Positions 9,960-39,770 of a DNA stretch of 39,982 nucleotides are shown in pieces (the stretch's first letter is position 1; every line of letters begins with the position of its first letter). A program made the translations under genes and the position numbers. Source of the stretch: a virus; IMG/VR virus record IMGVR_UViG_3300029397_000037, positions 1 through 39,982 of that record; one strand, given 5' to 3'. Below the pieces are notes generated by a model. It worked only from the letters and a program-made list of their open reading frames with translations, did no database searches and was not told where the DNA came from.

Positions 9960-10002
9960 CCCGGCCACCGCCGCACAACCCGACCAACACCCGGAGCACC
10001 CC

Positions 10003-11040
10003 ATGCGTAACGATACCCGCCGCCTCTACGACGCCTACACGGCCGAAATCGCCAAACTGAATGGCGTCAGCCGCGTCGACACCAAGTTCTCGGTCAATCC
10101 GACCGTGCAGCAGCGTCTGGAAACAAAGATTCAGGAATCCAGCCAGTTCCTGTCCAAGGTGAACATCCATGGCGTCTCGGAACAGGAAGGCGAAAAGATC
10201 GGCCTGGGCGTGTCCGGCCCCATCGCCAGCACGACAGATACCACCAAGCAAGACCGCGAAACGGCGGACCTGTCGACGCTCGACGCCATCGGCTACCGCT
10301 GCGAGCAAACCAACTCGGATACCCACATCACGTACCGAAAGCTCGACGCCTGGGCCAAGTTCAAGGACTTCCAGACCCGCATCCGCGACGCCATCATCAA
10401 GCGCCAGGCACTGGACCGCATGGTCATCGGCTTCCACGGCATCAAGCGCGTGCCCACATCCGACCGTGCGACCAACCCGCTGTTGCAGGACGTCAACAAA
10501 GGCTGGCTGCAGCACATCCGTGAAGGCGCCCCGCAGCGCGTGATGACGCACGACGGCAAGAACGCAGACAAGATCGTCATCGGCGGCGACGGCTCCGCAT
10601 ACGAAAACCTGGATGCGCTGGTCTTCGACATGGCGGGCAACCTCATGGAGCCCTGGTACGCAGAAGACCCAGAGCTGGTCGTCGTGTGCGGCCGGGAGCT
10701 GCTGGCCGACAAGTACTTCCCCATCATCAACCAGCCCAACCGCCCGACGGACACGCTCGCGCTGGACTTGATCGTCAGCCAGAAACGCATCGGCAACCTG
10801 CCGGCCGTGCGCGTGCCCTACTTCCCGGCCAACGGCCTGCTGCTGACGCGGCTCGACAACCTGTCCATCTACTACCAGGAAGGCACCCGCCGCCGCACCA
10901 TCGTCGACAACGCCAAGCGTGACCGCATCGAGAACTACGAATCCAGCAACGACGCGTATGTCGTGGAAGAGCTGGGCTGCGTGGCAATGGCTGAGAACGT
11001 CCATATCACTGGCGCAGCACCAAAGGCGGGCGAGAAATGA
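10003..11040 (+). CDS. N: Major capsid protein, P2 gpN family
   Basis: 345 residues (P2 N 357). Forms the icosahedral shell; in P2 the precursor is cut at its N-terminus by gpO. The start giving MRNDTRRLYDAYTAEIAKLNG follows the O stop by 43 bases. Conserved stretches include FSVNPTVQQRLETKIQESS, the GLGVSGPIASTTDT loop, LDRMVIGFHG and LPAVRVPYFPANGLLLTRLD. A longer in-frame extension upstream overlaps O and is not coding. Its stop overlaps the gpM start (ATGA). Confidence 0.96.
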   Translation: MRNDTRRLYDAYTAEIAKLNGVSRVDTKFSVNPTVQQRLETKIQESSQFLSKVNIHGVSEQEGEKIGLGVSGPIASTTDTTKQDRETADLSTLDAIGYRCEQTNSDTHITYRKLDAWAKFKDFQTRIRDAIIKRQALDRMVIGFHGIKRVPTSDRATNPLLQDVNKGWLQHIREGAPQRVMTHDGKNADKIVIGGDGSAYENLDALVFDMAGNLMEPWYAEDPELVVVCGRELLADKYFPIINQPNRPTDTLALDLIVSQKRIGNLPAVRVPYFPANGLLLTRLDNLSIYYQEGTRRRTIVDNAKRDRIENYESSNDAYVVEELGCVAMAENVHITGAAPKAGEK

Positions 11041-11855: not shown

Positions 11856-12335
11856 ATGTCCTCCTTCATCGCAGCCGCATCCGTACCGCAGCCCGCCGTG
11901 GCAGGCGGCCCGCCCATCGCCAACGACGGCTTCTTCCCCGACATCGACGTCGACCAGGCCTACGCCGCCATGCGCCTGGACGGCACCGTCACGCAACAGC
12001 GCATGCGCGCAGCACTGGTCGAGGCGGTGATTTCCGTCAATGACGAGCTGGAGGCCTGGAAGGTCGCGCAGGTCTCGTTTGGTCGGAACAGGCTGGCCGC
12101 AGTGCCCGCGCCCAAGATCGACGGCGAAAGCGCCCATCTGCACCGCTACCGGCGCGCCGTGCACTGCCTGGCCGCCGCCTGGCTCATCGAGCGCTACCGC
12201 ACCTTCGACGCCACCGCCGCCGGCGACCGCAAGGCTGAAGCCGAAAACCTGGGCGTTGACGATCTGCGCCGCGACGCCCGCTGGGCCATCAGCGACATCA
12301 AGGGCGCTGCCCGCACCACCGTCGAGCTCATCTGA
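11856..12335 (+). CDS. L: Head completion/stabilization protein, P2 gpL family
   Basis: 159 residues (P2 L 169). Closes the filled head before tail joining. The typical core is visible: NDGFFPDIDVDQAYAAMRLD, then VTQQRMRAALVEAVISVNDEL and YRRAVHCLAAAWLIERYR. The chosen ATG (MSSFIAAAS) follows the family start; an in-frame ATG 48 bases upstream adds an unconserved Pro/Ser-rich leader. Its TGA overlaps the ATG of X (TGATG). Confidence 0.93.
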   Translation: MSSFIAAASVPQPAVAGGPPIANDGFFPDIDVDQAYAAMRLDGTVTQQRMRAALVEAVISVNDELEAWKVAQVSFGRNRLAAVPAPKIDGESAHLHRYRRAVHCLAAAWLIERYRTFDATAAGDRKAEAENLGVDDLRRDARWAISDIKGAARTTVELI

Positions 12336-12538
12336 TGCGCGTGCGAGCCATCCAGGGCGACACGGTCGATGCCATCTGCCACCGCGTCTACGGCCGCACC
12401 GCAGGCGTCACAGAAGCCGTCTTGGCCGCCAACCCAGGCATTGCCGATCTTGGCCCCGTCCTGCCCCACGGCACCGAACTCGTCATGCCCGACATCTCCC
12501 CGCAGCCGGCCATGCAAATGGTCCAGCTCTGGGACTGA
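12335..12538 (+). CDS. X: Tail protein X, P2 gpX family (LysM-like)
   Basis: 67 residues, same as P2 X. A small LysM-like fold: RAIQGDTVDAICHRVYG, then VLAANPGIADLGPVLPHG, then LVMPDI. An essential tail component in P2. It overlaps the L stop by one base and is followed 14 bases later by the first holin-like gene. Confidence 0.94.
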   Translation: MRVRAIQGDTVDAICHRVYGRTAGVTEAVLAANPGIADLGPVLPHGTELVMPDISPQPAMQMVQLWD

Positions 12539-12552
12539 CCACAAGGAACCCA

Positions 12553-12948
12553 ATGGCTGAACCCATCTCCACCGGCTCCACCGCCACCCTCGCCGTCACG
12601 GGCGTGGGCGCGTTGTCCCTGCTGCCAGGCGTCGACCCGGGCACCGTGCTGGGCGCCTTCGCCGGCGCCGCTGTCTTCGTGCTCAACAGCGGCGAGCTCG
12701 GCACCGTCAAGAAGCTCGGCTTTCTGGCCGCGTCCATCGTCGCAGGGCTGCTGTCCGCGCCGCTGTCGGCCGCGCTCATCGCCAAGGCCCTGCCCACCAA
12801 TACCGAAGTCAGCCACGCCGTGGGCGCGCTGGTCGCCTCCACCGTCGTGGTGAAGCTGCTCCTGGCTCTCATCCGCCTGGCAGACAACAGCGACCGCCTC
12901 TTCGCCTCGCTCAAGGGCGGCGCAGACAAGGGAGGCAAGCAACCATGA
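12553..12948 (+). CDS. Putative holin-type membrane protein (first of two)
   Basis: 131 residues with an N-terminal hydrophobic stretch (about 10-45), a second (about 55-80) and a third (about 85-110), and a Lys/Gly-rich cytoplasmic tail (KGGADKGGKQP). P2-like phages of Burkholderia and Ralstonia carry a pair of small membrane proteins between X and the endolysin; one is the holin and the other may be an antiholin. RBS AAGGAA precedes the ATG. Its stop overlaps the next start (ATGA). Confidence 0.82.
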   Translation: MAEPISTGSTATLAVTGVGALSLLPGVDPGTVLGAFAGAAVFVLNSGELGTVKKLGFLAASIVAGLLSAPLSAALIAKALPTNTEVSHAVGALVASTVVVKLLLALIRLADNSDRLFASLKGGADKGGKQP

Positions 12949-21319: not shown

Positions 21320-21460
21320 GCGCGGTGAGAGGTGGGTTTTATAGGCAACCTGCATAGTGCAACGTCGCGCGCGGCACCGCTCGAAGTTCGGCGCTTCCCC
21401 CCTCTTCTGACGGGTCCAAATGCAGCGAATTTGCGACATTCGCCGCTGCGGCCTGTGTTC

Positions 21461-21485
21461 TGTTGTGCAGCCTCACGCCACAACA
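21461..21485. promoter_or_regulatory. Ogr-type activator box upstream of FI (late promoter P_F)
   Basis: TGTTGT (21461-21466), 13 bases, ACAACA (21480-21485), identical half-sites to the P/O box. Its centre is ~90 bp before the FI ATG, which leaves a ~35-base leader if the P2 -55 geometry holds. Confidence 0.83.
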
Positions 21486-21563
21486 CCCAGCGCGCGACAC
21501 GCTCGCGCGCGCGCCGCATCCTTGCCGGGTCTGATCCAACGTCGGCTCACCCCGGAGGAATGC

Positions 21564-22739
21564 ATGCCCACCGACTACCACCACGGCGTCCGTGTCATCG
21601 AAATCAACGAAGGCACACGCCCCATCCGCACCATAGCAACCGCCGTCGCCGGCGTGGTCTGCACGGCCAGCGACGCGGATGCGGCCGCCTTCCCGCTAGA
21701 CACTCCCGTGTTGCTCACCGACGTGCAAGGCAGCGTTGGCAAGGCCGGCGACAAGGGCACGCTCGCCCGCACGCTGCAGGCCATTGCAGACCAAACCAGC
21801 CCTCTGACCGTCGTCGTGCGCGTGGCTGAAGGCAAGGCCGAAGGCGAGACCACCAGCAACCTGATCGGCACCACCAACGATCAAGGCCGCTACACCGGCA
21901 TGAAGGCGCTGCTCGCCGCGCGCAACCGCTTTGGCGTCACGCCGCGCATCCTCGCCGCGCCTGGGCTCGACTCGCTGCCCGTCGCATCCGAGCTGGCCAG
22001 CATCGCCCAAAAGCTGCGCGCCTTTGCCTACGTCAGTGCCGCCGGCTGCAACACCAAGGAAGACGTCGTCGCCTACCGCCAGAACTTCGGCGCGCGCGAG
22101 CTCATGATGCTGTGGCCGGACTTCGTGGGCTGGGACACCGCCACCAACGCCGAGCGCACGCTCTGGGCCACCGCCCGCGCCATCGGCCTGCGCGCCAAGA
22201 TCGACAACGAGACCGGCTGGCACAAAACGCTCTCCAACGTGCCCGTCAACGGCGTAACGGGCCTCTCGCGCGACGTGTATTGGGATCTGCAGAACCCCGC
22301 CACCGATGCCGGCTACCTCAACTCCCACGACGTCACCACGCTCATCAATCAAAACGGCTTCCGCTTCTGGGGCTCGCGCACCTGCAGCGCCGACAAGCTG
22401 TTCGCCTTCGAGAACTACACGCGCACCGCGCAAGTCCTGGCCGACACCATGGCCGAAGCGCACATGTGGGCCAACGACCTGCCCATGACGCCAAGCCTGG
22501 TGCGCGACATCCTGGCCGGCGTCAACGCCAAGCTGCGCAACATGGTGCGCAACGGCTACCTGCTGGGCGGCGAAGCGTGGTTCGACCCCGCCGTCAACGA
22601 CAAAGACACGCTCAAGGCCGGCCAGTTGGCCCTCGACTACGACTACACGCCCGTCCCGCCGCTGGAAGACCTCACCTTCCGCCAGCGCATTACCGATCGC
22701 TACCTCATGCAGTTTGCCGACGCCGTCAAAGCGGCCTGA
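21564..22739 (+). CDS. FI: Tail sheath protein, P2 gpFI family
   Basis: 391 residues (P2 FI 396). Contractile sheath subunit. The ATG giving MPTDYHHGVRVIEINEGTRP is preceded by CGGAGGAA and is the family start; upstream reading crosses the promoter. Conserved: FPLDTPVLLTDVQGSVGKAG, LWPDFVGWDTATNAERTLWA, NGVTGLSRDVYWDLQNP and NGFRFWGSRTCSADKLFAFE. Confidence 0.96.
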   Translation: MPTDYHHGVRVIEINEGTRPIRTIATAVAGVVCTASDADAAAFPLDTPVLLTDVQGSVGKAGDKGTLARTLQAIADQTSPLTVVVRVAEGKAEGETTSNLIGTTNDQGRYTGMKALLAARNRFGVTPRILAAPGLDSLPVASELASIAQKLRAFAYVSAAGCNTKEDVVAYRQNFGARELMMLWPDFVGWDTATNAERTLWATARAIGLRAKIDNETGWHKTLSNVPVNGVTGLSRDVYWDLQNPATDAGYLNSHDVTTLINQNGFRFWGSRTCSADKLFAFENYTRTAQVLADTMAEAHMWANDLPMTPSLVRDILAGVNAKLRNMVRNGYLLGGEAWFDPAVNDKDTLKAGQLALDYDYTPVPPLEDLTFRQRITDRYLMQFADAVKAA

Positions 22740-23701: not shown

Positions 23702-23799
23702 TCTTCGGCTTCCGCCTGGAGGAGCTATACGCCATGGGCATCATGGAGCTGATGGAGTGGCGCGAACGCGCCCGCGAGCGTAGCGAGGCGCAGGAATGA
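23375..23799 (+). CDS. E+E' extended product by -1 ribosomal frameshift
   Basis: The zero frame reads GGT TTT TTG at 23624-23632, so T-TTT-TTG (23626-23632) is in the right phase for -1 slippage, the same heptamer P2 uses for E+E'. After slippage the frame runs on to TGA 23797-23799, giving about 141 residues and ending FRLEELYAMGIMELMEWRER, which is the GpE/E' family signature. The E' part has no good start of its own. Its stop overlaps the T start by ATGA. Confidence 0.86.
23626..23632 (+). other. Programmed -1 frameshift slippery site T-TTT-TTG
   Basis: Six T and one G phased X-XXY-YYZ with the E frame. It gives a fixed ratio of short E to long E+E' chaperone, a conserved feature of caudoviral tail assembly genes before the tape measure. 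Confidence 0.85.
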
Positions 23800-26411
23800 G
23801 CGACGCTCGCCGCCTGCGCCTGGAGGTTGTGCTGCAGGCTGTGGATCGGGCCACGCGCCCGTTTCGCAGCCTGCTGAAGACCAACAACGAGCTTGCCCGC
23901 TCGATGAAGGCCACGCGCGACCAGCTCAAGGCGCTGGAGCGTGCGCAGGGGCTGACCAACCAGTTCGGCAAGCTGCGCTCCAATATCGGCGAGACCGCCA
24001 CTGCGCTCAAGGCCGCCCGGGAGCGGATGGTTCGTCTCCGCGAAGCCGTAAAAGCGGCCGAGTCGCCCACCGCCAAGCTGGTGCAACAGTTCCGCCAGGC
24101 CTCGGCCGAGTCCGTTCGTCTCGCCAGCAAATACCAGGCACAGCGCACCCAGCTCGAAGAAGTGCGGCAGAAGCTGCGGGAGGCGGGGCGCGGCTCCATG
24201 ACGATGGCGCAGTACCAGGATCACCTGCGCAAATCCACCGAAGCCGCCACGCGGGCGCTAGAACAGCAGGACGCCAGGCTTAAGGCTCACAACTCTCGCG
24301 CAAAGGCACAGGCGGCGGTGCAGCACACCGCAGACCGAATCCGCGCGCGCGCCGGCAACCTGGCCGCTGCCGGAGCCGGCGCGTCGGTGGCCGGCATGGC
24401 GGCTGGCTCGCCCCTCTTGAAAGGCATTGGCCAGGCGAAAGACTACGAACAACAGGTCTCCCAGTTCCGCGCGCTCGGCATTGGCGAGAAGAAGCTGCAG
24501 GAGGCCGCAGCGTTCGCCAACAGCATCAACGTTCAGGGCCTGAGCCAGCTCGACAAACTCAAGCTGCTCAAAGAGACGTACACCATCACGCGGGACATGC
24601 ACCACGCCGAAGAGATCGCGCCTGTCCTCGCAAAGATGAAGGTCGGCATCGAATCGGTCATGGCCCGGCGCGGCCACGGCGAAGGGCACGGTGAGATCGC
24701 CGAGCAAATGCTCATGGACCTGGTTAAGACCACCGAGCTGCGCGGCTCCCTCAAGAGCCCCGAAGCCTTCAAGCAGGCCGTGGATAACGCGACCAAGGCC
24801 TATGTGGCTTCTGGCGGCACGGTCAAGCCGGAAGACTTCCTCAATGCCATCAAAACGGGGGGGATCGCAGCCAAGCAGTTGGGCGACGATAGCTTCTACT
24901 TTGGCCTGCTGCACACCATGCAGGAAATGGGTGGCTTTCGCACAGGCACGGGCTTGATGAGCGCGTACACAAACTGGGTGCAGGGCCGCAGTACGCAGCA
25001 AACTGCGGAAGAGCTCGTCAACGCCGGCATGGTCGATCCGGCCTCGGTCAAGTACGGCAAGACCGGGCACGTCACCAAGATGCTGCCCGAAACGCTCGAA
25101 CAGGTTGAGCTCTACAAGACCGACCCGTTCGAGTACATGACGAAAGTGCTGCTGCCCAAGATCAACCCGGACGGCAAGCTGAGCGACCAGCAAGTGGTTA
25201 GCAAAATCGGCCAAATGTTCTCCGCCCGCAAAGGCGGCGACCTTCTTGCATCGCTCTTTCTTGAGCGGGCCAATATCCAAAAGCACCGGGAGAGCGCGCC
25301 CAAAGCGTACGGAGTGGATCCGCTCTACGCCGAGGGAATGCGCATGACGCAAGGCAAGGAAATGGAAACCCTTGCCAAGGTCCGAGATCTGGAAAAGGAA
25401 ATCGGCGAGAAGGTATTGCCGCTGTACGCCAGCGCCCTGGAGTGGGTCGCACGTGCAGCCGATCGCGTCACCAAGTTCATGCAGAAGAACCCCGGGCTCG
25501 CCAAGGCCATGGCCATCAGTGTTGGCGTGCTGGCCGCCTCGCTGCTGGTGCTCGGCCCCATCATGCTGGCGATTGCATCCGTGCTCGGGCCGTACGCCAT
25601 GCTGCACATCCTCCTGGGCAAGATCGGCGTGTCGGGCGGCGTGCTGTCCGCCGTGCTGCGGGGGCTGGGCGGCGCCTTCATGTGGGTGGCGCGTGCGGTG
25701 CTGTTCATCGGCCGCGCTCTGCTGCTGACTCCCATCGGTTTGGCAGTCACGGCCATTGCAGTGGCAGCCTATTTGATCTACAAGCACTGGGACTGGATCA
25801 AAGGCAAGTGGCGCGAGATTTGGCAAGGCATGGAAACCGACACCAGCGGCACCATTGCCCGCATCAGCGCGATCGTGCTGAGCTGGGCACCGCTCAGGCT
25901 CTTTTACGCCGTGCTCGCGCCCGTGCTGCGCTGGTTCGGCGTCGATATGCCAGACAAATTCTCGGAGTTCGGCGCCAACATCATCAAAAGCCTGATCGAC
26001 GGCCTGTTCAGCAAATTCCCCGCGCTCAAAGACGCCCTAGGGAAAGTCGCCGCGTGGTTCAAAAACCTGTTTGGCGACACCGCCCCCGCGCTGCCCACAC
26101 CTCCTGAAACACCCGCGCTGGAAGCGGCCAAGACTGGTGTCGGCAAGCTGGCCGGCATCGGTGCAGGCATCGCCATCGGCAGCGCACCGGCGCTGGCCGC
26201 ACCCATTTCTTTCGACATGCGCCCGGCGCTCACAACCATCGCCGCCGCCGGCGCCGCGGCCCATGCCGCGCCCATGCAGCCCATCATCAACGTGTACCCG
26301 CCCGCCGGCGCCGACCCGCAGGCCATCGCGCGCATGGTGCGCGACGAGCTGCGCCAGATCGAAAACCAACGCGCGGCGCGTGCGCGCTCGCGCCTCTCAG
26401 ACAGGGATTGA
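23796..26411 (+). CDS. T: Tape measure protein, P2 gpT family
   Basis: 871 residues (P2 T 815). N-terminal long coiled-coil region (about 1-190: LRLEVVLQAVDRATRPFRSL; LRKSTEAATRALEQQDARLK), a TP901-type domain (about 210-430), hydrophobic segments (about 565-600 and 620-660: LLVLGPIMLAIASVLG, LTPIGLAVTAIAVAAYLI), and a tail domain (HWDWIKGKWREIWQG) with a C-terminal basic end. It sets tail length and is ejected with the DNA. ATG overlaps the E' stop. Confidence 0.95.
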   Translation: MSDARRLRLEVVLQAVDRATRPFRSLLKTNNELARSMKATRDQLKALERAQGLTNQFGKLRSNIGETATALKAARERMVRLREAVKAAESPTAKLVQQFRQASAESVRLASKYQAQRTQLEEVRQKLREAGRGSMTMAQYQDHLRKSTEAATRALEQQDARLKAHNSRAKAQAAVQHTADRIRARAGNLAAAGAGASVAGMAAGSPLLKGIGQAKDYEQQVSQFRALGIGEKKLQEAAAFANSINVQGLSQLDKLKLLKETYTITRDMHHAEEIAPVLAKMKVGIESVMARRGHGEGHGEIAEQMLMDLVKTTELRGSLKSPEAFKQAVDNATKAYVASGGTVKPEDFLNAIKTGGIAAKQLGDDSFYFGLLHTMQEMGGFRTGTGLMSAYTNWVQGRSTQQTAEELVNAGMVDPASVKYGKTGHVTKMLPETLEQVELYKTDPFEYMTKVLLPKINPDGKLSDQQVVSKIGQMFSARKGGDLLASLFLERANIQKHRESAPKAYGVDPLYAEGMRMTQGKEMETLAKVRDLEKEIGEKVLPLYASALEWVARAADRVTKFMQKNPGLAKAMAISVGVLAASLLVLGPIMLAIASVLGPYAMLHILLGKIGVSGGVLSAVLRGLGGAFMWVARAVLFIGRALLLTPIGLAVTAIAVAAYLIYKHWDWIKGKWREIWQGMETDTSGTIARISAIVLSWAPLRLFYAVLAPVLRWFGVDMPDKFSEFGANIIKSLIDGLFSKFPALKDALGKVAAWFKNLFGDTAPALPTPPETPALEAAKTGVGKLAGIGAGIAIGSAPALAAPISFDMRPALTTIAAAGAAAHAAPMQPIINVYPPAGADPQAIARMVRDELRQIENQRAARARSRLSDRD

Positions 26412-26413
26412 CC

Positions 26414-26836
26414 ATGATGATGGCACTGGGTCTGTTCGTGTTCAGCCTGGACACGGCCCCGTATGCGGAGTTTCAACGCCAGATCGGCTGGCGCCACCCC
26501 GGCAACAATCGGGTCGGCCGCCGCCCATCGCACCAATTCACCGGCCCGGACGACGAAACCATCACGCTATCGGGCAAGCTGGTGCCCGAGCTCACCGGCG
26601 GCGAATGGACGCTCGCCGCGCTGGAAGTCATGGGCGACAGCGGCGAATCTCACACGCTCATCGAGGGCACCGGCCGCTACTACGGCCAGTTCATCATCGA
26701 CAGCCTGGACACCACCCGTACCTACTTCTTCCAGGACGGCGCCGCCCGCGTGTGCGACTTCACCATCAAGCTGACCCGCGTAGATGACGGCCTGCTGTCC
26801 AAGGCGGCGAGCGTTGCAACGGACTTGCTGCGATGA
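26414..26836 (+). CDS. U: Tail protein U, P2 gpU family
   Basis: 140 residues from ATG 26414 (three consecutive ATG codons allow one- or two-residue differences). Tail-terminator-type protein. Family stretches: ALGLFVFSLDTAPYAEFQRQ, IGWRHPGNNRVGRRPS, HQFTGPDDETITLSGKL and SLDTTRTYFFQDGAARVCDF. It starts two bases after the T stop and overlaps D by four bases. Confidence 0.94.
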   Translation: MMMALGLFVFSLDTAPYAEFQRQIGWRHPGNNRVGRRPSHQFTGPDDETITLSGKLVPELTGGEWTLAALEVMGDSGESHTLIEGTGRYYGQFIIDSLDTTRTYFFQDGAARVCDFTIKLTRVDDGLLSKAASVATDLLR

Positions 26837-27930
26837 CGGACAAGCACACCACCGCCCTCTCCCCCCGCCCGGCCTACCGCATCAAGGTGGGCGACAAAGA
26901 CATCACCGACCGCTTCCAAGGCCGGCTGATCGAGCTCACGCTCACCGACAACAGCGGCTTTGAAGCGGACCAGCTCGACATCGAGCTCGACGACAGCGAC
27001 GGCAAGCTCGACCTGCCCGAGAAAGGGGTACGCCTGGCGCTGTCGCTCGGGTGGGCAGATTCCGGCCTGGTGGACAAAGGCACCTACAAGGTGGACGAGC
27101 TGGAGCACAGCGGCCCGCCGGATCGGCTCATCATCCGCGCGCGCAGCGCAGAGATGGACGGTGGCCTCATCACCCGGCGCGAAGACTCGTATGCCGACAA
27201 GACCGTCGCGGAAGTCGTCCAAGCCATCGCTCTGCGCAACAAGTTCACCTGGTTGGTCGGCAAGAAGCTGGCCGGCCAAGTCATCACCCACGTGGATCAG
27301 ACCGGCGAGTCAGACGCCAACTTCCTCTCGCGGCTGGCGAAAGAGTTCGACGCCATTGCCACGGTGAAGAACGACAAGCTGCTATTCATTCCCGCCGGAG
27401 AGCCGACCAGCGGGTCGGGCCTGCCGCTGCCCACGGTCAGCATTACGCGCGCGTCGGGCGACACCCACACCTTCAGCGTTGCCGATCGGGAGAACTACAA
27501 CGGCGTGAAGGCGCACTACCAGGACACGCGCGCCGGCGTGCGTGGTGAGGTGGTCATCGATGCTTCCAATGCCGTGGCCACCAAAGAGAAGCGCACCACC
27601 AAAGAGAAAAAGAAGAAGCAGGAGACGGTGCAGGCCGACCCGAACCCGGACAACGTGAAGGTGCTGCGGCACACATACGCGTCACGGTCCAACGCCGAGC
27701 GGGCTGCACGGGCGGAATGGCAGAAGATTCAGCGCGGCGTGGCGACGTTCAACATCACGCTGGCGCGCGGGCGGGCGGAGCTGTTTCCCTCGTTGCATGC
27801 GAAGGTGAGCGGGTGGAAGCCGCAGATTGATGGGACGGGCTGGTCTGTCGGCCGTGTTGTTCACAGCTTGAACGACAACGGTTTCATAACAACCATCGAT
27901 CTTCAGATCGCTTCTAACAAGGTTAGTTGA
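26833..27930 (+). CDS. D: Tail protein D, P2 gpD family (baseplate hub)
   Basis: 365 residues (P2 D 387). A gp27-like hub that joins the tube to the spike. Family features: RPAYRIKVGDKDITDRFQGR, LTDNSGFEADQLDIELDDSD, GTYKVDELEHSGPPD and RVVHSLNDNGFITTIDLQIA. A Lys-rich loop (TKEKKKK, about residue 255) sits between domains. Last gene of the FI-to-D operon; it ends ~100 bases before an intrinsic terminator. Confidence 0.95.
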   Translation: MTDKHTTALSPRPAYRIKVGDKDITDRFQGRLIELTLTDNSGFEADQLDIELDDSDGKLDLPEKGVRLALSLGWADSGLVDKGTYKVDELEHSGPPDRLIIRARSAEMDGGLITRREDSYADKTVAEVVQAIALRNKFTWLVGKKLAGQVITHVDQTGESDANFLSRLAKEFDAIATVKNDKLLFIPAGEPTSGSGLPLPTVSITRASGDTHTFSVADRENYNGVKAHYQDTRAGVRGEVVIDASNAVATKEKRTTKEKKKKQETVQADPNPDNVKVLRHTYASRSNAERAARAEWQKIQRGVATFNITLARGRAELFPSLHAKVSGWKPQIDGTGWSVGRVVHSLNDNGFITTIDLQIASNKVS

Positions 27931-28029
27931 CCATCGACAAACAACATATCAACCGTTTTAGTTCACTAAATTCATGGGCACCACCTGCAGTGGGGGATTC
28001 TCGGCTTCTGCATACCAGTCGATAATGAG

Positions 28030-28052
28030 ATCCAACTTTGGGTTGGATTTTT
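28030..28052 (+). terminator. Intrinsic terminator after the late tail operon
   Basis: ATCCAAC (28030-28036) pairs with GTTGGAT (28042-28048) around TTTGG, followed by a T-run to 28052. It is placed to end the FI-to-D transcript, but its T-run is only three bases before the ATG of the next gene. Confidence 0.8.
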
Positions 28053-28055
28053 CTC

Positions 28056-29720
28056 ATGCGTCTTACCGATTCGGCTGCCACCAAGCTTGAGCACTACTTC
28101 TTGGACATTAAGTTCGCGCCCTTAGCCCTCAGCGCCATTAGCGAGTTGCTGGCTGAAGTACTGAAGGAAGCACCGCCCCCTGCCGAGGAGATGGAAGGAG
28201 AGTTGGCAGCAGCCTTCCTTGAGAGGCTGATTCCTCTAGTACAAACAGCCATCATCAAGAAACAGCAGGCATATGGCGCTGTGCAGTGGCTTTGGTACCT
28301 TCGTCGAATGCCGGAGTTCCCCTTGATGGGTAGTTACCATACGACGCTTGCGTACGACCTCGCATTGGCAGAGTCGCTATCTTGGTATTGCCCGCAAACT
28401 GGTGCCAGCCCCTCGGGCAATCCCCTCGCCTTCAACTGCGATGAGTCAGTTGCAAGACACCTCGCAAGGTTTATTGGAAGAATCAAGCTGCTGTCGCAGC
28501 TCCACATCGCCTATCGGCGGGTCGGCAAGGGTTCAAGACTGACGGTCAGTTCAAAGGAAGTACGTTTTCATACTGACGCTGCAACAGAAGCCGCCATTAA
28601 TCTCTATGACGAGCGGCATGACGCTGCGCGACAACACAATGGCGGTCGACTTGGGATCGCTGAAGGAAATACTGACTTCACCGATCCGGAACATTTCTCA
28701 GAGCCCGACATAGCGAGAGCGCACCTTGTGTTCGGCTTCCATGGCGACAAAATAGACGCCCCAACACTTTTCCCGCATGAAGGACGGCTTGTAGCCGGTC
28801 TTGTCGCAACGCGCTTCATTCTTCAATCCGCAAGTGTCGACCGTATCATCCGCCCTTTTTTGGCGGGAAACGGGCCAACGCCCGCCTATGTGCAACAACT
28901 GTCGGCATTGGTGCTGCTCCTGATTTTGTTGCCCTCACTTTTCGTTGAGTTCCCATGGGCGTTTTCGACCGTTCAGCAACGTGGGTACTTCTTAACTATG
29001 GGTGCGCAACTCCGGGCATGGGCAGACAAGAACTTAGAGCATGTAGCAAGGCAGCTCTCTGAGCGCTACCCAGAGATCGTTTGGCCCGGCAAGTACGACG
29101 ACTGGATCAATAGCCTTAACTCTATTGAACCGAACCTGTGGCCACTGAAGTCCGGAGGTGTCCTGCGAAAGTTGGGAGAAATTACGCTCATAGACTTTTC
29201 AGCAGCGACTAGTTCCTTACTTGCTGGGCAGCAAATTGATAGAGACCCGGCCATAGGGAACGTTCGAGCAGGCATCTTCGAGGATGAATGCCAGGAAATC
29301 ATCGATGCAAGCTCATGGGTGCCGCCGGACGCGCTCAAGCAACAGCGCCGAAAGCAGCTAAGGCGTAATGGAAACAAAATCACTGATGTCGATGCCGTCG
29401 GCTGCCGGGATGGCCAACTGCTCCTGGTTTCCTGCAAGAGCCTCGTCTACGACGGTGACTATGACAAAGGCGTACTCCGGGTGGTGAAGAACCTTCAGTC
29501 AACCATTGACAAGGCCGTTGCCGATTGGAACGCCAAGATTGAGGACATTCGCAACAACCCAAGGGGAGACAACTTCGATTTTTCCGGGTACCGCGAAATA
29601 CACGGAGTCGTATGCACGCCCTTCGTGGCCTACTCGAATACGGCGGCAACCCTCCAAAGGTCTATCTTTGGATGGCACGCATGCGCCTCTGCCGAGGAAC
29701 TGCGGAATGCCCTGGCCTGA
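28056..29720 (+). CDS. PD-(D/E)XK-like nuclease-domain protein, accessory (possible defence)
   Basis: 554 residues from ATG 28056; a TTG at 28038 inside the terminator is the only near alternative, and neither has a clear ribosome site. The first ~380 residues are mostly helical with one hydrophobic stretch (LSALVLLLILLPSLFVEFPW). The C-terminal part resembles a restriction-endonuclease fold: Glu409-Asp-Glu (IFEDECQEII), Asp444/Asp446 (ITDVDAVGC) and a strand ending Ser459-Cys-Lys461 (LLLVSCKS), where ExK would be usual. It is much less GC-rich than gene D. Position behind the tail operon and fold suggest a defence or exclusion nuclease; no named system is recognised. Confidence 0.78.
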   Translation: MRLTDSAATKLEHYFLDIKFAPLALSAISELLAEVLKEAPPPAEEMEGELAAAFLERLIPLVQTAIIKKQQAYGAVQWLWYLRRMPEFPLMGSYHTTLAYDLALAESLSWYCPQTGASPSGNPLAFNCDESVARHLARFIGRIKLLSQLHIAYRRVGKGSRLTVSSKEVRFHTDAATEAAINLYDERHDAARQHNGGRLGIAEGNTDFTDPEHFSEPDIARAHLVFGFHGDKIDAPTLFPHEGRLVAGLVATRFILQSASVDRIIRPFLAGNGPTPAYVQQLSALVLLLILLPSLFVEFPWAFSTVQQRGYFLTMGAQLRAWADKNLEHVARQLSERYPEIVWPGKYDDWINSLNSIEPNLWPLKSGGVLRKLGEITLIDFSAATSSLLAGQQIDRDPAIGNVRAGIFEDECQEIIDASSWVPPDALKQQRRKQLRRNGNKITDVDAVGCRDGQLLLVSCKSLVYDGDYDKGVLRVVKNLQSTIDKAVADWNAKIEDIRNNPRGDNFDFSGYREIHGVVCTPFVAYSNTAATLQRSIFGWHACASAEELRNALA

Positions 29721-29740: not shown

Positions 29741-29872
29741 ATGCATATGCCGAGGAGCCCATCCCCTTCGGCTCCGACAAAGCGGTCTCCCGCCGAGCAA
29801 ACGCAAACCTTCATTGCGAAGCCTCCTTCACGCTTCAAGTTCGACCACCCCCGCACTAAGCTCAACGTCTAA
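29741..29872 (+). CDS. Possible 43-residue basic, Pro/Ser-rich ORF
   Basis: Starts 20 bases after the nuclease stop, sequence MHMPRSPSPSAPTKRS then FIAKPPSRFKFDHPRTKLNV. No ribosome site stands out and no family is recognised, so it may be spurious. The remainder of the 239-base gap up to 29959 is GC-rich and contains nothing I can identify. Confidence 0.22.
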   Translation: MHMPRSPSPSAPTKRSPAEQTQTFIAKPPSRFKFDHPRTKLNV

Positions 29873-29959
29873 CGCGTTGCCACACTCGTTAACCCACAGC
29901 CCCGCCACCGCGCCGTAGCCTCACCACGCGGCCCGCGCGCCGCTGTGGGAGATACGTAA

Positions 29960-30514
29960 GTGAGCAACAAGACGAACATCAAGCAGAGCATTTCCGCCGG
30001 CAATGGCAACGTGCAAATCGGCCAGGTGATCCTATGCGGGTCCGCCGCCCGTTCACGCTGCCCCACTCCGCCGGCGCCAGCCAAAGAACGCATGACCACC
30101 GAGCAACGGGCAGAACTCACCCACATCGCATTACAGATTGAACTGGAGGAAGATGGCGCCGTGGACGCCGGCACCGTTTGGAAAGCCTTGTGCAACCACC
30201 TCAACGGCCGGGGCTTACAAGACGTGAGAGACAACACTGAGTTGTCTCACGAGCAGTACTGGGCAGCCCGATCCTATTTGGATGGCTGGTTATCCTGCGC
30301 GCGGGGTGAAAACCTGCCGCGTACCGGCATGATTCGGGAGATCATGCGGATGTGGGGACTTCGGGGTGGGCTTCGAGCGTCCACAATGGCGTTGTGCGAA
30401 ACACGGTTTCGTGCGACTACGCTGGGCGATCTAACAGACGCCCAACTACGGGCAGCGCTATGGGTTACGGTGGCAGATTGGCGCGCATACTGGACGCAAC
30501 TGGAAACCAACTAA
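29960..30514 (+). CDS. ORF6C-like regulatory protein with NVQIG motif
   Basis: 184 residues from GTG 29960, with GGGAGA upstream. The N-terminus (TNIKQSISAGNGNVQIGQV) is a short beta-type repeat motif seen ahead of ORF6C-type domains in phage regulators. A Cys/Pro-rich linker and then a helical domain follow (AELTHIALQIELEEDGAVDA, VWKALCNHLNGRGLQDV, LSHEQYWAARSYLDGWLS). The repressor at 33207 ends with a similar motif (GGSNNVQVGNV), so the two may share an assembly mode or partner. An antirepressor/regulatory role is plausible, not shown. Confidence 0.68.
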   Translation: MSNKTNIKQSISAGNGNVQIGQVILCGSAARSRCPTPPAPAKERMTTEQRAELTHIALQIELEEDGAVDAGTVWKALCNHLNGRGLQDVRDNTELSHEQYWAARSYLDGWLSCARGENLPRTGMIREIMRMWGLRGGLRASTMALCETRFRATTLGDLTDAQLRAALWVTVADWRAYWTQLETN

Positions 30515-32052: not shown

Positions 32053-33126
32053 CTACTCCATCATGAGCGCGATCGCTTCGTCTTCATTCATTACTGGAAT
32101 CCCAAGCGCCTCGGCCTGAGCAAGCTGCTTGTGCCCCACCAACGGCCCGGCAACCACATAGGTCACGGTCCTGGTGATTCTCTCTCGCACATCCCAGCCA
32201 GCTTCCAACGCGCGCGCCTCCAAGGCGTCGCGTCGAGTAGGGTGCAGGCCAGCGAAGACCACCGCTGTCTGCCAATCCCATGCCTCCGCTTTGCGCCGAC
32301 CTCTTTCCTTCCGTCTGGTCGAATCCGGCGACATCGCTACAGCGGAAAGCCAAGAGGCTGCGCTCATGACTTCCCCCGTCTCTGAGCGGGTAACTGAGCC
32401 AACAATGCGGTGGATCAGGAAAGAGCGCGTCGCCTTTCGATCATGGTCGTGCGCGTCCATGTATGGCCTGCCCTTTATGTCCACCACCTGAAACGCTGTC
32501 ACCGTGCGCCTCTGCTGCGTTCCATCGGCCTTGCGATACCGGAATGAAATTGTGTCGGGGAGTTGGATCGGTTCGACAGTTGCCGACAGGTACATCTCCG
32601 GTGCCCTGCCCTTCGACTTTGCTGCCGGCGTAGCCCGTCTCGGCGGCTGAACCGAATCAGACTGAATGGTCGGCGCCCCACTCGCTTTCGTGCCAGTTGC
32701 ACTTGCGCTGGTCGGAAGGCTAGACGGCGCCATCTGACGCACGTCGCCGGGCACGTAATTGAGCTCCCGCCACCACGCACCGAGCCGCTCGCGCAATGGC
32801 CCTGAAACGGGACGCAAAACTGGCTTAACTGCTAGCCCTGGCGCCTTCGTCGCTACCTGGCCATATCGGTGATATGCCCAACAAGTTCCAAAGGTGAACA
32901 GCCACATTAGCAACTTGCCGCCATCGCCCCAATCATCGTCATTTGACACTACTGCCGCACAGACGAACATGAAGGCGGGAACATGCGCGGCAAAAAGCGC
33001 AATCAAGTGCCCGCGCCACCGTGGCCCACCTCGGGCAACGTGACCACGAACCAATTCAAGCCATCCCCAAGCGGTCAGCCAAACATAACCGACCAAAATT
33101 CCGATGCTGGCAAACGCGTCCTGCAC
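32053..33126 (-). CDS. Membrane protein with WYL-like and BRCT domains
   Basis: 357 residues. Two or three N-terminal membrane segments (about 4-26, 38-62, 70-86) and a long Ser/Pro/Ala linker (about 110-185) precede a WYL-like strand set (ISFRYRKADGTQQRRTVTAF, RPYMDAHDHDRKATRSFLIH) and a C-terminal BRCT domain (VVFAGLHPTRRDALEARALE, VTYVVAGPLVGHKQLAQAEA, GIPVMNEDEAI). WYL domains bind nucleic acid or ligands and BRCT domains bind DNA ends or phosphoproteins, so a membrane-bound DNA sensor is conceivable. It lies between the repressor and the OB-fold gene, in the leftward lysogenic direction, flanked by both 47-bp repeats. Confidence 0.78.
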   Translation of the reverse strand: MQDAFASIGILVGYVWLTAWGWLELVRGHVARGGPRWRGHLIALFAAHVPAFMFVCAAVVSNDDDWGDGGKLLMWLFTFGTCWAYHRYGQVATKAPGLAVKPVLRPVSGPLRERLGAWWRELNYVPGDVRQMAPSSLPTSASATGTKASGAPTIQSDSVQPPRRATPAAKSKGRAPEMYLSATVEPIQLPDTISFRYRKADGTQQRRTVTAFQVVDIKGRPYMDAHDHDRKATRSFLIHRIVGSVTRSETGEVMSAASWLSAVAMSPDSTRRKERGRRKAEAWDWQTAVVFAGLHPTRRDALEARALEAGWDVRERITRTVTYVVAGPLVGHKQLAQAEALGIPVMNEDEAIALMME

Positions 33127-34839: not shown

Positions 34840-34946
34840 GAGGGCTCCTCTGTTGATGATTCAAACGGTGTTGGAACCAATGAGTCTATGGCCGAGGATG
34901 TCCCTCACCCACCTTCTGTAAAACAAAGCCACAAACAGGACCGCCC

Positions 34947-35198
34947 ATGCTGATGACCTGCCCCCATTGCAAAGGCCGTCTGAAAATCCGCACCAGCCGC
35001 GAGGTGACGCTGCTCACGCGCGAAGCCTACTTGCAGTGTGAAGACGTGCATTGCGCCTACACCTGCGCGGCCATCATTTCGCAGGTGCGCACCATCGCGC
35101 CCAGCATGCGGCCCAACCCGCAGGCCTATCTGCCCGTGAGCCGCAAGCGGCCAGCGGCGCAAGACACGCGCCAACTGGATCTGCTCGGCGGCAAGTAG
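34947..35198 (+). CDS. ogr: Late-gene activator, Ogr/Delta-like zinc-finger protein
   Basis: 83 residues. The Ogr zinc-finger pattern is exact: Cys5-x2-Cys8-x22-Cys31-x4-Cys36 (TCPHCKG ... QCEDVHC), with ARTSRxx-like IRTSREVTLLTREAYLQ between. Ogr/Delta proteins bind the TGTTGT/ACAACA boxes and contact the RNA polymerase alpha subunit to switch on late promoters. Three such boxes are present in this window. It is longer than P2 Ogr (72) by a basic C-terminal tail. In P2, ogr follows gene D; here it lies in the early operon, so it is expressed before the late genes by a different route. Confidence 0.9.
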   Translation: MLMTCPHCKGRLKIRTSREVTLLTREAYLQCEDVHCAYTCAAIISQVRTIAPSMRPNPQAYLPVSRKRPAAQDTRQLDLLGGK

Positions 35199-35233
35199 CC
35201 GCCCCTCTCTTTCCTCCCTTTTCCCCTGTCCGA

Positions 35234-35268
35234 CGGCGTGTCTCCCCCACGCCGGAGGGCGGCTTTTT
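35234..35268 (+). terminator. Possible terminator/attenuator before the BRO-N gene
   Basis: CGGCGTG (35234-35240) can pair with CACGCCG (35248-35254), while GCCG (35251-35254) can instead pair with CGGC (35260-35263) and is followed by T5 and, after five bases, T6. The two hairpins share bases and are mutually exclusive. Confidence 0.5.
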
Positions 35269-35290
35269 GCCCATTTTTTGCGAGGCCCGT

Positions 35291-35836
35291 ATGCAAACCA
35301 ACGCAGTCTTGACCTTTGAAAACGTCGACTTTGATGTGGTCGATATCCGCAACACGCCATGGCTAAGGGTCTTCCAGATTGGAAGTGCCTTGGGCTACCG
35401 GAATCCCAGCTCCGACATGGCGAAGCTGTATGACCGCAATGCGGACGAGTTCACCGAGGAATTGACGCAGCTCATCGAGCTCGACACCGTCGGCGGCCGG
35501 CAGCAAGTGCGCATCTTCAGCCCGCGCGGCTGCTATCTGCTCGGCATGCTGGCGCGCACCGAGCGCGCCAAGGCGTTCCGCCGCTGGGTGCTCGACGTGC
35601 TGGAAGGCCGCCTGGTGCCACAAGAGACGGGCCGCATGACGGTGCCGCAGCGCCTGGCTGCGCTCCGCTGCCGCAGCACCTTGGTCAAAGAACTTGCCAA
35701 CGCACGCACCGCGCCACTGGCGGTGGAGCTGTACGCCAACCTGCAGCAGGTCTCCCGGCTGCTGGGCATGCAGGCGCAGCCCATCTCCGTGCTTGCGCCC
35801 ATCGCGCGCCAGAACAGCCTGCAGGGCATTGCCTGA
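35291..35836 (+). CDS. BRO-N domain phage antirepressor-like protein
   Basis: 181 residues. The BRO/KilA-type N-domain is clear: LTFENVDFDVVDIRNTPWLR, VFQIGSALGYRNPSSDMAKL, DTVGGRQQVRIFSPRGCYLL and RAKAFRRWVLDVLEG. The C-terminal part is helical without an ANT domain. Bro proteins bind DNA and often act as antirepressors or early regulators. Located in the early lytic operon behind Ogr. Confidence 0.88.
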   Translation: MQTNAVLTFENVDFDVVDIRNTPWLRVFQIGSALGYRNPSSDMAKLYDRNADEFTEELTQLIELDTVGGRQQVRIFSPRGCYLLGMLARTERAKAFRRWVLDVLEGRLVPQETGRMTVPQRLAALRCRSTLVKELANARTAPLAVELYANLQQVSRLLGMQAQPISVLAPIARQNSLQGIA

Positions 35837-35846
35837 GGAGGCCAGC

Positions 35847-36017
35847 ATGCAACCGTCTGTCCTGGCTTTCGTTGTCCGCGTTACCAGCTCCACCGGCGTG
35901 CGCCAGCGTTTCTTCGTCTTGGCCCGCTCCAGCGTCGACGCACTGCTCATGGTGCTCGGCCAGCGCGGCATCAGCGCGCGCGGTGCCTCTGCCCGCCCCG
36001 CGCGGAGGGCCGCCTGA
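35847..36017 (+). CDS. Small conserved phage protein (56 aa)
   Basis: MQPSVLAFVVRVTSSTGVRQ at the start, then RFFVLARSSVDALLMVLGQR and an Ala/Arg-rich tail. GAGGAGG five bases upstream gives a strong start. A short alpha/beta fold is likely. It is part of a tight run of small early genes found in P2-like phages of Burkholderiaceae; function unknown. Confidence 0.7.
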   Translation: MQPSVLAFVVRVTSSTGVRQRFFVLARSSVDALLMVLGQRGISARGASARPARRAA

Positions 36018-36259
36018 TGCTCGCTCTCGTCAACCTCTGGATGGTGCTCACCGCCCTGGTGTCGGTGGCTCTGCTGAACTACGACAGCCGCACGCACCGC
36101 TGGGGCGCACTGGTGGGCCTGCTGGGCCAGCCTGCATGGCTGTACCTGACGCACGTAACCAATGAGCCCGGCATGTTCACCGCCAGTGTGTTCTTCCTGC
36201 TGTGCTACGGCCACGGCGTCTGGCGGGGCTTCTTCGCCAGTGGGGTGCGCCATGAGTAA
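36017..36259 (+). CDS. Small membrane protein of the early operon
   Basis: 80 residues with three hydrophobic stretches (about 3-19, 28-45, 52-72), starting at the ATG that overlaps the preceding stop (TGATG). Ends with a basic segment. Function unknown; a superinfection-exclusion or host-membrane role is possible but unsupported. Confidence 0.72.
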   Translation: MLALVNLWMVLTALVSVALLNYDSRTHRWGALVGLLGQPAWLYLTHVTNEPGMFTASVFFLLCYGHGVWRGFFASGVRHE

Positions 36260-37064: not shown

Positions 37065-39770
37065 ATGAACCTCGACCTCTCCTCCGCCCTTGCGTCGCGC
37101 CTGGTGCGCGACTACGGCTTCAAGGAACGATCGAACAAGCTGGAGAACGGCACCTGCCCCTCCTGCGGAAAACGCTCGCTGTGGGCCTTTGCAGATGCGC
37201 CCTGGGTCGTGCGCTGCAACCGGCTGAACAACTGCGCAGCCGAGTACCACGCCAAAGAGCTGTACCCCGATCTCTTCGCCTCCTGGAGCGACCGTTACGT
37301 CAAAACTGCGGAAGCGCCCAACGCAGCAGCCGACGCCTACATGCGCGACGCACGCGGCTTTGACCTGGCGCGCGTCGCTGGCTGGTACACGCAAGAGAGC
37401 TACTACAGCCACGAGCTGAAGATCGGCAGCGCCACCGTCCGCTTCCCCTTGAGCGAAGGCCGCTACTGGGAACGCATCATCGACCAGCCCGAGCGCTTTG
37501 GAGACCGTAAAGCCACGTTCAGCGGCTCATACGCGGGCACCTGGTGGCAGCCGCCCACCCTGCCGGCCCAGCCAAAAGAGCTGTGGCTGGTGGAGGGCAT
37601 CTTTGATGCCATCGCCCTGCTGCATCACGACGTGGCGGCAGTCGCCACGTTCTCTTGTTCGCACTACCCGGCCGCCGCATTGGCCGCGCTGGCCGAGCAA
37701 TGCGCCGCCGGCGGCCACAAGCGCCCGCACCTGGTGTTTGCCCTGGACAACGACGCCGCCGGCCGGCGCTACGCGCTCAAGCACATCGAGCGCGCCCGCA
37801 ACGATGGCTGGTCGGCGTCGGCTGCGCTGCCCAAGCAGGCCGGCAAGACCAAGCTCGACTGGAACGAGCTGCATGTGCGCGACCGCCTTTCCAAGCGGGA
37901 CCTGGACGAATATCGCTACCTGGGCGACCTCTTCACCGCCGCCACGCCATCGGACAAGGCGCGCTTGATGTACCGCCGCACGGGCGACGCGAAGTTTCCG
38001 TTCGAGCACCGCAACCGCCTGTACTCGTTCAAGCTCGACCTCGACGCCTTCCAGCGCGAAAGCACGACCGTGCGCGAGGTGCATGAAGACATGGCGGAAG
38101 ACGAGGTGCGCGAGCACGCCCTCCAGCGCGCCTGCATCGTGCAGCCCATCGCCAACTGCCTGCCCACCGCGCTCTACTACCAGGCCAGCCCGCAGACAGA
38201 CGAGTCCTGGTACTACTTCCGCGTCGCCTTCCCGCATGATGGCCAGCCCATCAAAGCCACGTTCACCAGCGCGCAAATCGCCAGCAGCAGCGAGTTCAAG
38301 AAGCGCCTGTTGGGCGTGGCCCCGGGCGCCATGTACACGGGCACCGGCCAGCAGCTCGACGAATACCTGGAGAAGCAGCTCGCCCACATTCCAACCGTGC
38401 AGACCATCGACTTTGTGGGCTACACCAAGGAATACGGCTGCTACGTCTACGGCGACGTGGCGGTGAAAGGCGGCAAGCTCTTTCGGCTGAACGACGAAGA
38501 CTTCTTCGACATCGGCAAGCTCTCGGTTAAGACCATCAGTCAGGCTGCAACGCTGTCCCTCTCCACTGACGTGCAGGGCATGCAGACGACCTGGTTGCCG
38601 CTGCTGTGGCAGGCCTTCGGCCCCAAGGGCCTGGCCGCGCTGGCGTTCTGGTTTGGCAGCCTGTTCGCAGAACAGATCCGCCAGGAGCACAAGAGTTACC
38701 CCTTCCTGGAGCTGGTGGGCGAGCCAGGCGCCGGCAAGACGACGCTCATTGAATTCCTCTGGAAGCTCTGCGGCCGGCGTGACTACGAAGGCTTCGACCC
38801 GAGCAAGTCATCGCTCGCCGCCCGCGCCCGCAACTTCGCCCAGGTCGCCAACCTGCCCGTCGTGCTCATCGAGGGCGACCGCGGCGACGAAGGCGCCAAG
38901 CAACGCGGCTTCGATTGGGACGAGCTCAAGACCGCCTACAACGGCCGCAGCACCCGCGCGCGCGGCATGAAGAACGGCGGCAACGAAACGTACGAACCGC
39001 CCTTCCGTGGCGCCATCGTCATCAGCCAAAACGCAGAAGTCAGCGCCAGCGACGCCGTCCTCCAGCGGATCGTCCATATCTATTGCGACCGCTCGGCACA
39101 AACGTCAGCCACGCGCGCTGCAGCCGAAGCGCTGGAGCGCATTCCCGTCGAGGATGTGTCCGCCTTCCTCCTGGCCACCGTTATGGCCGAGTCCAAAGTG
39201 CTGGAAACCTTCGCCGCCCGCGTGTCTGCTCACGAGCAGGCCTTGATGGCCCGCCCCGACATCAAGACCGTCCGCATCGCCAAGAACCACGCGCAAATCA
39301 TGGCGATGGTCGACAGCATGCGCCACGTGCTGCCGCTCACCGACGAGCAGCATGCCGCCGCCCTGGACGAGCTGGGCCGCATGGCCGCAGCGCGCCAACA
39401 GGCCATCAGCGCGGATCACAAGCACGTACAGCAGTTCTGGGAGGTGTACGAGTACATCGAGTCGGCCGACGACGACCGCCCGATCCTCAACCACGCACGC
39501 GGCGACGGCCTCATCGCCATCAACCTGCAGCACATGGAACAAGTCGCCGGCGAGCGCCGCATCGAGCTGCCCCCGATCGCGGAGCTCAAGCGGGTGCTCA
39601 AGACGTCTCGTCAGCGCAAATTCGTCGACATCCGCGCCGTCAACAGCGCGATCAACGCCCACCACAACCGCGAATACCTGCACGCCCCCAAACGGCCGGA
39701 AACGGTCAAGTGCTGGGTGTTTGAGTCGCCGTCTTCCAAGCAACACAGCAACACAGGAACCCCAGCATGA
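37065..39770 (+). CDS. Replication primase-helicase (zinc finger, TOPRIM, P-loop ATPase)
   Basis: 901 residues. Zinc-binding head Cys31-x2-Cys34 ... Cys51-x5-Cys57 (GTCPSCGKRSLW, VRCNRLNNCAAEYHAKELY); TOPRIM core with Glu177 (ELWLVEGIFDAIALL) and Asp228-Asn-Asp230 (VFALDNDAAGRRY); a large middle part; then a helicase domain with Walker A at about residue 550 (ELVGEPGAGKTTLIEFLWKL) and Walker B-like LPVVLIEGDRGDE. This resembles P4 alpha/toprim-type replication proteins of P2-like Burkholderia and Ralstonia phages, not P2 gpA, so replication should be origin-dependent theta-type. The C-terminus (about 700-900) is helical and may bind the origin. It overlaps alpA by ATGA. Confidence 0.92.
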   Translation: MNLDLSSALASRLVRDYGFKERSNKLENGTCPSCGKRSLWAFADAPWVVRCNRLNNCAAEYHAKELYPDLFASWSDRYVKTAEAPNAAADAYMRDARGFDLARVAGWYTQESYYSHELKIGSATVRFPLSEGRYWERIIDQPERFGDRKATFSGSYAGTWWQPPTLPAQPKELWLVEGIFDAIALLHHDVAAVATFSCSHYPAAALAALAEQCAAGGHKRPHLVFALDNDAAGRRYALKHIERARNDGWSASAALPKQAGKTKLDWNELHVRDRLSKRDLDEYRYLGDLFTAATPSDKARLMYRRTGDAKFPFEHRNRLYSFKLDLDAFQRESTTVREVHEDMAEDEVREHALQRACIVQPIANCLPTALYYQASPQTDESWYYFRVAFPHDGQPIKATFTSAQIASSSEFKKRLLGVAPGAMYTGTGQQLDEYLEKQLAHIPTVQTIDFVGYTKEYGCYVYGDVAVKGGKLFRLNDEDFFDIGKLSVKTISQAATLSLSTDVQGMQTTWLPLLWQAFGPKGLAALAFWFGSLFAEQIRQEHKSYPFLELVGEPGAGKTTLIEFLWKLCGRRDYEGFDPSKSSLAARARNFAQVANLPVVLIEGDRGDEGAKQRGFDWDELKTAYNGRSTRARGMKNGGNETYEPPFRGAIVISQNAEVSASDAVLQRIVHIYCDRSAQTSATRAAAEALERIPVEDVSAFLLATVMAESKVLETFAARVSAHEQALMARPDIKTVRIAKNHAQIMAMVDSMRHVLPLTDEQHAAALDELGRMAAARQQAISADHKHVQQFWEVYEYIESADDDRPILNHARGDGLIAINLQHMEQVAGERRIELPPIAELKRVLKTSRQRKFVDIRAVNSAINAHHNREYLHAPKRPETVKCWVFESPSSKQHSNTGTPA

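Follow-up and report, generated by a model that had tools for sequence, protein, structure and literature searches.

The window analysed here, which is the whole 39,982 nucleotides of the virus record IMGVR_UViG_3300029397_000037, is a P2-like prophage, and its 554-aa cargo gene (28056..29720, plus strand) probably encodes a single-gene anti-phage nuclease that is carried as a moron and has a permuted active site. The product combines a long, mostly helical N-terminal region with a C-terminal PD-(D/E)XK core. An earlier note on this DNA, made from the letters alone, had suggested a candidate defence nuclease, and the proposal gains from two results: the gene lies in a cargo hotspot, and the top structural match of its product is Upx.

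The prophage backbone includes genes for an integrase (1-1236), the large terminase subunit (7200-8987, minus strand), the major capsid protein (9712-11040), the tail sheath (21420-22739) and a primase (37065-39770), as well as a long ORF (23796-26411) that was assigned to the tape-measure position by its location. Among named phages, P2-like phages of Burkholderia come closest, sharing about 74% DNA identity across the tail sheath gene. A 92% identical copy of the cargo gene occurs in the corresponding phage setting in Ralstonia sp. UNC404CL21Col, which makes Ralstonia or a close relative the probable host. Elsewhere in the window, a 357-aa protein (32053-33126, minus strand) resembles phage DNA-ligase families in its C-terminal half (phrog_2561, E 3.6e-12), possibly through a BRCT-type domain only, and two minus-strand ORFs (35363-36253 and 34905-35360) lie in stretches whose DNA is conserved in many related phages and had no match in PHROGs.

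The cargo ORF runs from ATG 28056 to TGA 29720 and is a real gene. In the comparison with the Ralstonia copy (L006) the start codon and frame are kept, and substitutions point to purifying selection (dS 0.37, dN 0.038, dN/dS 0.10). The mechanical ORF start, TTG 28038, was rejected: the Ralstonia copy lacks this codon but retains the ATG, and ATG 28056 is therefore the best start. The protein has the described size, and its gene is indeed lower in GC (54% against 62%): the values are 0.545 for the gene, 0.622 for the window and 0.63-0.665 for the neighbouring tail and replication genes. A base composition unlike that of the phage backbone (0.545 against 0.62-0.665) is a trait of morons.

Homologues in Paraburkholderia and Burkholderia are about 38-42% identical, one in a further genome of the same family is 35% identical, and those of Streptomyces, found on plasmids as well as on chromosomes, share 23-24% overall and about 30% in the core. 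Their distribution is sporadic. With the seed genomes included, the gene was found in at least 3 of 398 genomes sampled from the family of the Ralstonia genome, at least 1 of 399 from its order and at least 1 of 321 from its class, and in at least 1 of 296 from the phylum of the Streptomyces genome and at least 2 of 199 from its genus, all of these counts being lower bounds because few candidates per genome were scored. Searches of viral contigs with alignments returned just the known Ralstonia-type copy.

A terminator-like hairpin precedes the gene (28030..28052, plus strand), and its T-run ends three bases before the ATG, as had been described. It has a perfect 7-bp stem (28030-28036/28042-28048), a loop at 28037-28041 and a T-run at 28048-28052, reading ATCCAAC TTTGG GTTGGAT followed by a run of five T, with CTC between the T-run and ATG 28056. 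Its folding energy is -13.2 kcal/mol (z -3.07), and it is the sole plus-strand stem of this kind with a T-rich tail in the window, mononucleotide shuffles giving 0. A generic terminator scan of the window did not list it, probably because pairing of the stem can continue into the T-run; because it contains just three G-C pairs, it is uncertain how strongly it would terminate transcription. The inverted repeat reaches further, to ATGAG (28025-28029) and CTCAT (28053-28057), so that the start codon can be taken into it. The earlier note saw no ribosome site, which is mostly right: the sole Shine-Dalgarno-like triplet, GGA (28045..28047, plus strand), lies 8 nt 5' of the ATG and is buried in the 3' arm of the hairpin.

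From this arrangement it had been suggested that expression may need read-through of the terminator, late or under stress, or an unusual start; a rival reading is accordingly that the gene is silent, or expressed only late by read-through from the tail operon. The T-run right before the ATG, the position of the start codon inside the longer inverted repeat and the lone GGA all favour such a reading, yet we consider it unlikely. The gene is under purifying selection, and only the two Ralstonia-type copies have the hairpin; upstream of the homologues in Paraburkholderia and Streptomyces the sequence is different and lacks it. The hairpin thus belongs to the phage context and not to the protein family. 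Moreover, a weak promoter-like site lies upstream (27998..28026, plus strand), with TTCTCG at 27998 as the -35 element, a 17-nt spacer and GATAAT at 28021-28026 as the -10 element. It is one of four plus-strand sites in the window that score at least 5/6 in the -10 and at least 3/6 in the -35 element, and among these it is the one that directly precedes the cargo gene; in a generic promoter scan it falls below the threshold. If used, this site would start the mRNA near 28033, within the 5' arm of the hairpin, and, because the start lies there, the gene's own transcripts would lack the full hairpin while those of the tail operon would carry it. Morons usually bring their own expression signals, and in a Burkholderia prophage their expression is independent of adjoining phage genes (PMC2920897). 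Read-through as a required mode of expression was accordingly set aside as unnecessary, given the non-conserved hairpin and the promoter-like site upstream, and the hairpin is probably an ordinary insulation of the moron from the tail operon.

The fold of the C-terminal part is that proposed in the earlier note. An AlphaFold2 model of the whole protein, built from seven sequences, has a mean pLDDT of 73.9 and reaches about 90 over most of the core around residues 410-520; the core is reproduced when the domain is modelled in isolation. This core (residues 398-521, 29247..29618, plus strand) consists of a helix (398-417), three strands (440-444, 447-451 and 454-460), a helix (474-500) and a strand (514-521), which is the alpha-beta-beta-beta-alpha-beta arrangement of the PD-(D/E)XK superfamily. 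With the domain model as the query, Foldseek returns mostly PD-(D/E)XK proteins (R2 endonuclease, Card1/Can2, XisH, BspD6I, McrC, Cas4-like), with weak E-values, the best being 8.8e-3. The N-terminal region (residues 1-368, 28056..29159, plus strand) is mostly helical according to DSSP of the model, with a less confident beta part. It had been noted as lacking a recognised domain, in agreement with our searches, and it is conserved: R154, K158-G159, Y184-D185 and R187 are invariant among full-length homologues of Burkholderiaceae and Streptomyces. That it senses or oligomerises is a guess. The protein family was not matched in Pfam, PADLOC, PHROGs or NCBIfam, an Rfam search gave no match, and nothing below E 0.01 was found in a viral structure library.

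With the whole model as the query, the best Foldseek match is Upx (9wuf; E 3.9e-5, probability 1.00), three orders ahead of the rest, at a TMq of 0.36, a high rmsd of 11.9 A and 11% identity. With the nuclease domain alone, Upx drops to an E-value of 0.21; since the full model does better than the domain, the extra significance comes from outside the core, suggesting that the two predicted or known structures share an overall plan to which the N-terminal part seemingly contributes. Upx is much longer (1212 residues against 554), and 9wuf was not found when the PDB chain sequences were searched with a profile. We take Upx to be an uncharacterised PD-(D/E)XK anti-phage protein from a computational defence survey of 2020. 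Presumably PADLOC-DB 2.0.0 contains a model for it, and seven members of the present family, searched up to E 10, had no match in PADLOC. UPF0102/YraN (3fov) matches weakly by profile over the D...K part of the core, but the E-values (0.45 and 0.11) are not significant, and YraN is a short protein without a comparable N-terminal region. The CRISPR ancillary nucleases Card1/Can2, Shedu SduA and the R2 retrotransposon endonuclease share the PD-(D/E)XK core at the level of fold only (E 0.009-0.14), and for the N-terminal region no match to CARF or Shedu domains was obtained. Membership in Upx, YraN, Shedu or Card1 was rejected for want of a significant sequence match, and Upx was kept as the closest fold.

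The gene is located downstream of the P2-like tail gene D (26833..27930, plus strand; phrog_52, E 6.3e-140), in a position that varies among related phages. Similarity to relatives ends near 27885 and resumes at about 29789-29833, followed by a conserved ORF (29960-30514), so that the right border of the slot lies within 29797..30514 on the plus strand. A gene D probe yielded 53 related viral loci for comparison. Eight close relatives match the window up to the end of gene D and again from 29.79-29.88 kb of the window onward, and the intervening 1.1-4.0 kb of their DNA is different, a variable insert between conserved phage genes being typical of morons and hotspots. For the more distant relatives, the slot was defined as a stretch of at most 4 kb past gene D, so that its right border is not fixed. 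Cargo was recorded at L027-L031, L033, L035 and L067, and also at L026, L037, L038, L075 and L076. It includes ApeA (Pfam ApeA_NTD1 and HEPN_Apea, 6e-19; PADLOC, 1.4e-23), a SIR2 protein of PDC-S65 (4.7e-226), PDC-S33 in at least two phages (1e-117), PDC-S49, a type IV REase-like protein and methyltransferases, as well as non-defence cargo, namely a ricin-B lectin (L035 and L067) and several hypothetical proteins. One slot also carries an 808-aa STAND-like ATPase with TPRs (L031:5777-8203, plus strand), which has no clear PADLOC family and is a candidate defence sensor. Small ORFs that look alike by eye are located beside or in the slot (L006:11832-12317 and 12314-12796, both minus strand, and L033:9662-10351, plus strand); one of them was run against Pfam and had no match.

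P2-like prophages are reservoirs of defence hotspots (PMC9122126, PMC9519451), those of the Escherichia coli P2-like phages being the cos-proximal gpA-gpQ position (PMC9122126) and another locus, which contains fun (PMC9519451). These hotspots are similar to the slot described here in being small (about 1-4 kb) and variable and in holding single defence genes amid conserved phage genes (PMC9122126, PMC9519451); the present slot differs in following tail gene D and in belonging to Burkholderiales phages. The post-gene-D position was not found described as a defence hotspot in the accessible parts of the literature on P2-like hotspots.

The cargo protein might instead be a nuclease with a role other than defence, in lysogenic conversion, in DNA repair or recombination, or in the DNA metabolism of the phage or a satellite. 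The weak similarity to UPF0102/YraN and the ricin-B lectin in the same slot are consistent with such a role, and the family has no sequence match in the defence-model libraries, which counts against a defence function. This explanation seems rather improbable, nevertheless, because the slot, the one place where cargo contents were surveyed, is rich in known and candidate defence genes, because the top structural match is Upx, and because so sporadic a gene, even in the Ralstonia family, is ill-suited to housekeeping.

The residues of the putative active site, E409...D444-x-D446...S459-C-K461, are exactly where the earlier note had placed them. E409, the acid of helix alpha-A in the motif FExxxQ (codon 29280..29282), and both acids of D444-x-D446 (29385..29393, codons at 29385 and 29391) are invariant in 11 homologues, and so are the serine and the lysine of S459-C-K461 (29430..29438, codons at 29430 and 29436), all on the plus strand. 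Conservation was counted over 11 sequences of Burkholderiaceae and Streptomyces, a shallow alignment, since few homologues were found. All 11 have S-x-K in place of the canonical (P)D...(D/E)xK ending; this excludes the canonical motif but not the superfamily, which permits displaced acids (PMC1189080, PMC6344858). The invariant E409, D444, D446 and K461 would be enough for a predicted metal site. Enzymes of the CCGG family are active with a displaced (D/E)xK acid (PMC6344858, PMC1189080). In PfoI, the site is E113...E167-x-D169...K187, in which one acid sits two residues before the central Asp (E...ExD...K), and the substitutions E167A, D169A and K187A nearly abolish cleavage (PMC6344858). 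PfoI, like Cfr10I and NgoMIV, thus has the same order, E...(E/D)-x-D...K, and lacks the canonical (D/E)xK acid (PMC6344858), whereas the cargo protein has no detected sequence similarity to PfoI and no methyltransferase partner, and the likeness may be convergent. By analogy with these enzymes, SCK need not mean a changed or lost function and may mark a permuted intact site and not decay; as the site is conserved and PfoI provides a precedent, an active nuclease would be expected.

The loss of the (D/E)xK acid in every member could alternatively indicate a catalytically dead PD-(D/E)XK domain that serves to bind DNA or has a structural role. We regard this as quite improbable and do not favour it: all four candidates for the metal site are invariant across two phyla, which a dead site would not need, and PfoI, with its comparable E...ExD...K site (PMC6344858), as well as the CCGG-family enzymes (PMC6344858, PMC1189080), are active.

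The contexts of the homologues are mobile and diverse. In P. atlantica (L007:4525-14144), the homologue is cargo of a 9.5-kb element bounded by 54-nt tRNA-Pro repeats, which also encodes AlpA, a D5-type primase, an HK97-type capsid protein and an integrase, and which by resemblance can be labelled a capsid-bearing satellite. Burkholderia sp. OK233 has two copies in a duplicated segment (L008 and L010), neither of them intact: one is interrupted by an IS with 19-bp inverted repeats, and in the other the 3' end is replaced at a different IS. Such breakage could signal a cost, and standalone nucleases often need control, which would suit a partner in an overlooked multi-gene system, such as the toxin of a toxin-antitoxin pair or the effector of a multi-component defence; this is very improbable, because the unrelated contexts compared have no neighbouring protein in common, which argues for a one-gene unit.

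A single-gene anti-phage nuclease would thus operate in the P2-like prophage as a moron inserted after tail gene D, its helical N-terminal region possibly sensing infection, regulating or oligomerising, and its C-terminal PD-(D/E)XK domain acting as the nuclease. In the permuted site, made up of E409, D444-x-D446 and K461, serine replaces the (D/E)xK acid and D444 plausibly supplies the acid. In the lysogen, a weak promoter of its own would drive the gene, with the hairpin insulating it from the late tail operon, and infection by a competing phage might trigger cleavage of nucleic acid, either the invading or the host DNA, resulting in superinfection exclusion.

In a broader sense, the gene may represent an undescribed family of single-gene anti-phage nucleases, half-size relatives of Upx with a permuted E...DxD...K site, which travel in Burkholderiaceae on P2-like prophages and a capsid-bearing satellite, occur also on Streptomyces plasmids and chromosomes, and are found in an undescribed post-gene-D defence hotspot of Burkholderiales P2-like phages; we hold this whole picture tentatively, at slightly less than even confidence. 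Most likely it would form a new branch within an already known type of defence protein, and not a new type altogether. If true, it would add a defence nuclease family that the four searched family libraries miss, and would offer a compact 554-aa possible relative of Upx for dissecting sensing and cutting. It would also mean that what looks like a broken (D/E)xK motif can be the sign of an intact active site in permuted form, and that more defence genes could be sought in the slot past tail gene D in the P2-like prophages of Burkholderiales.
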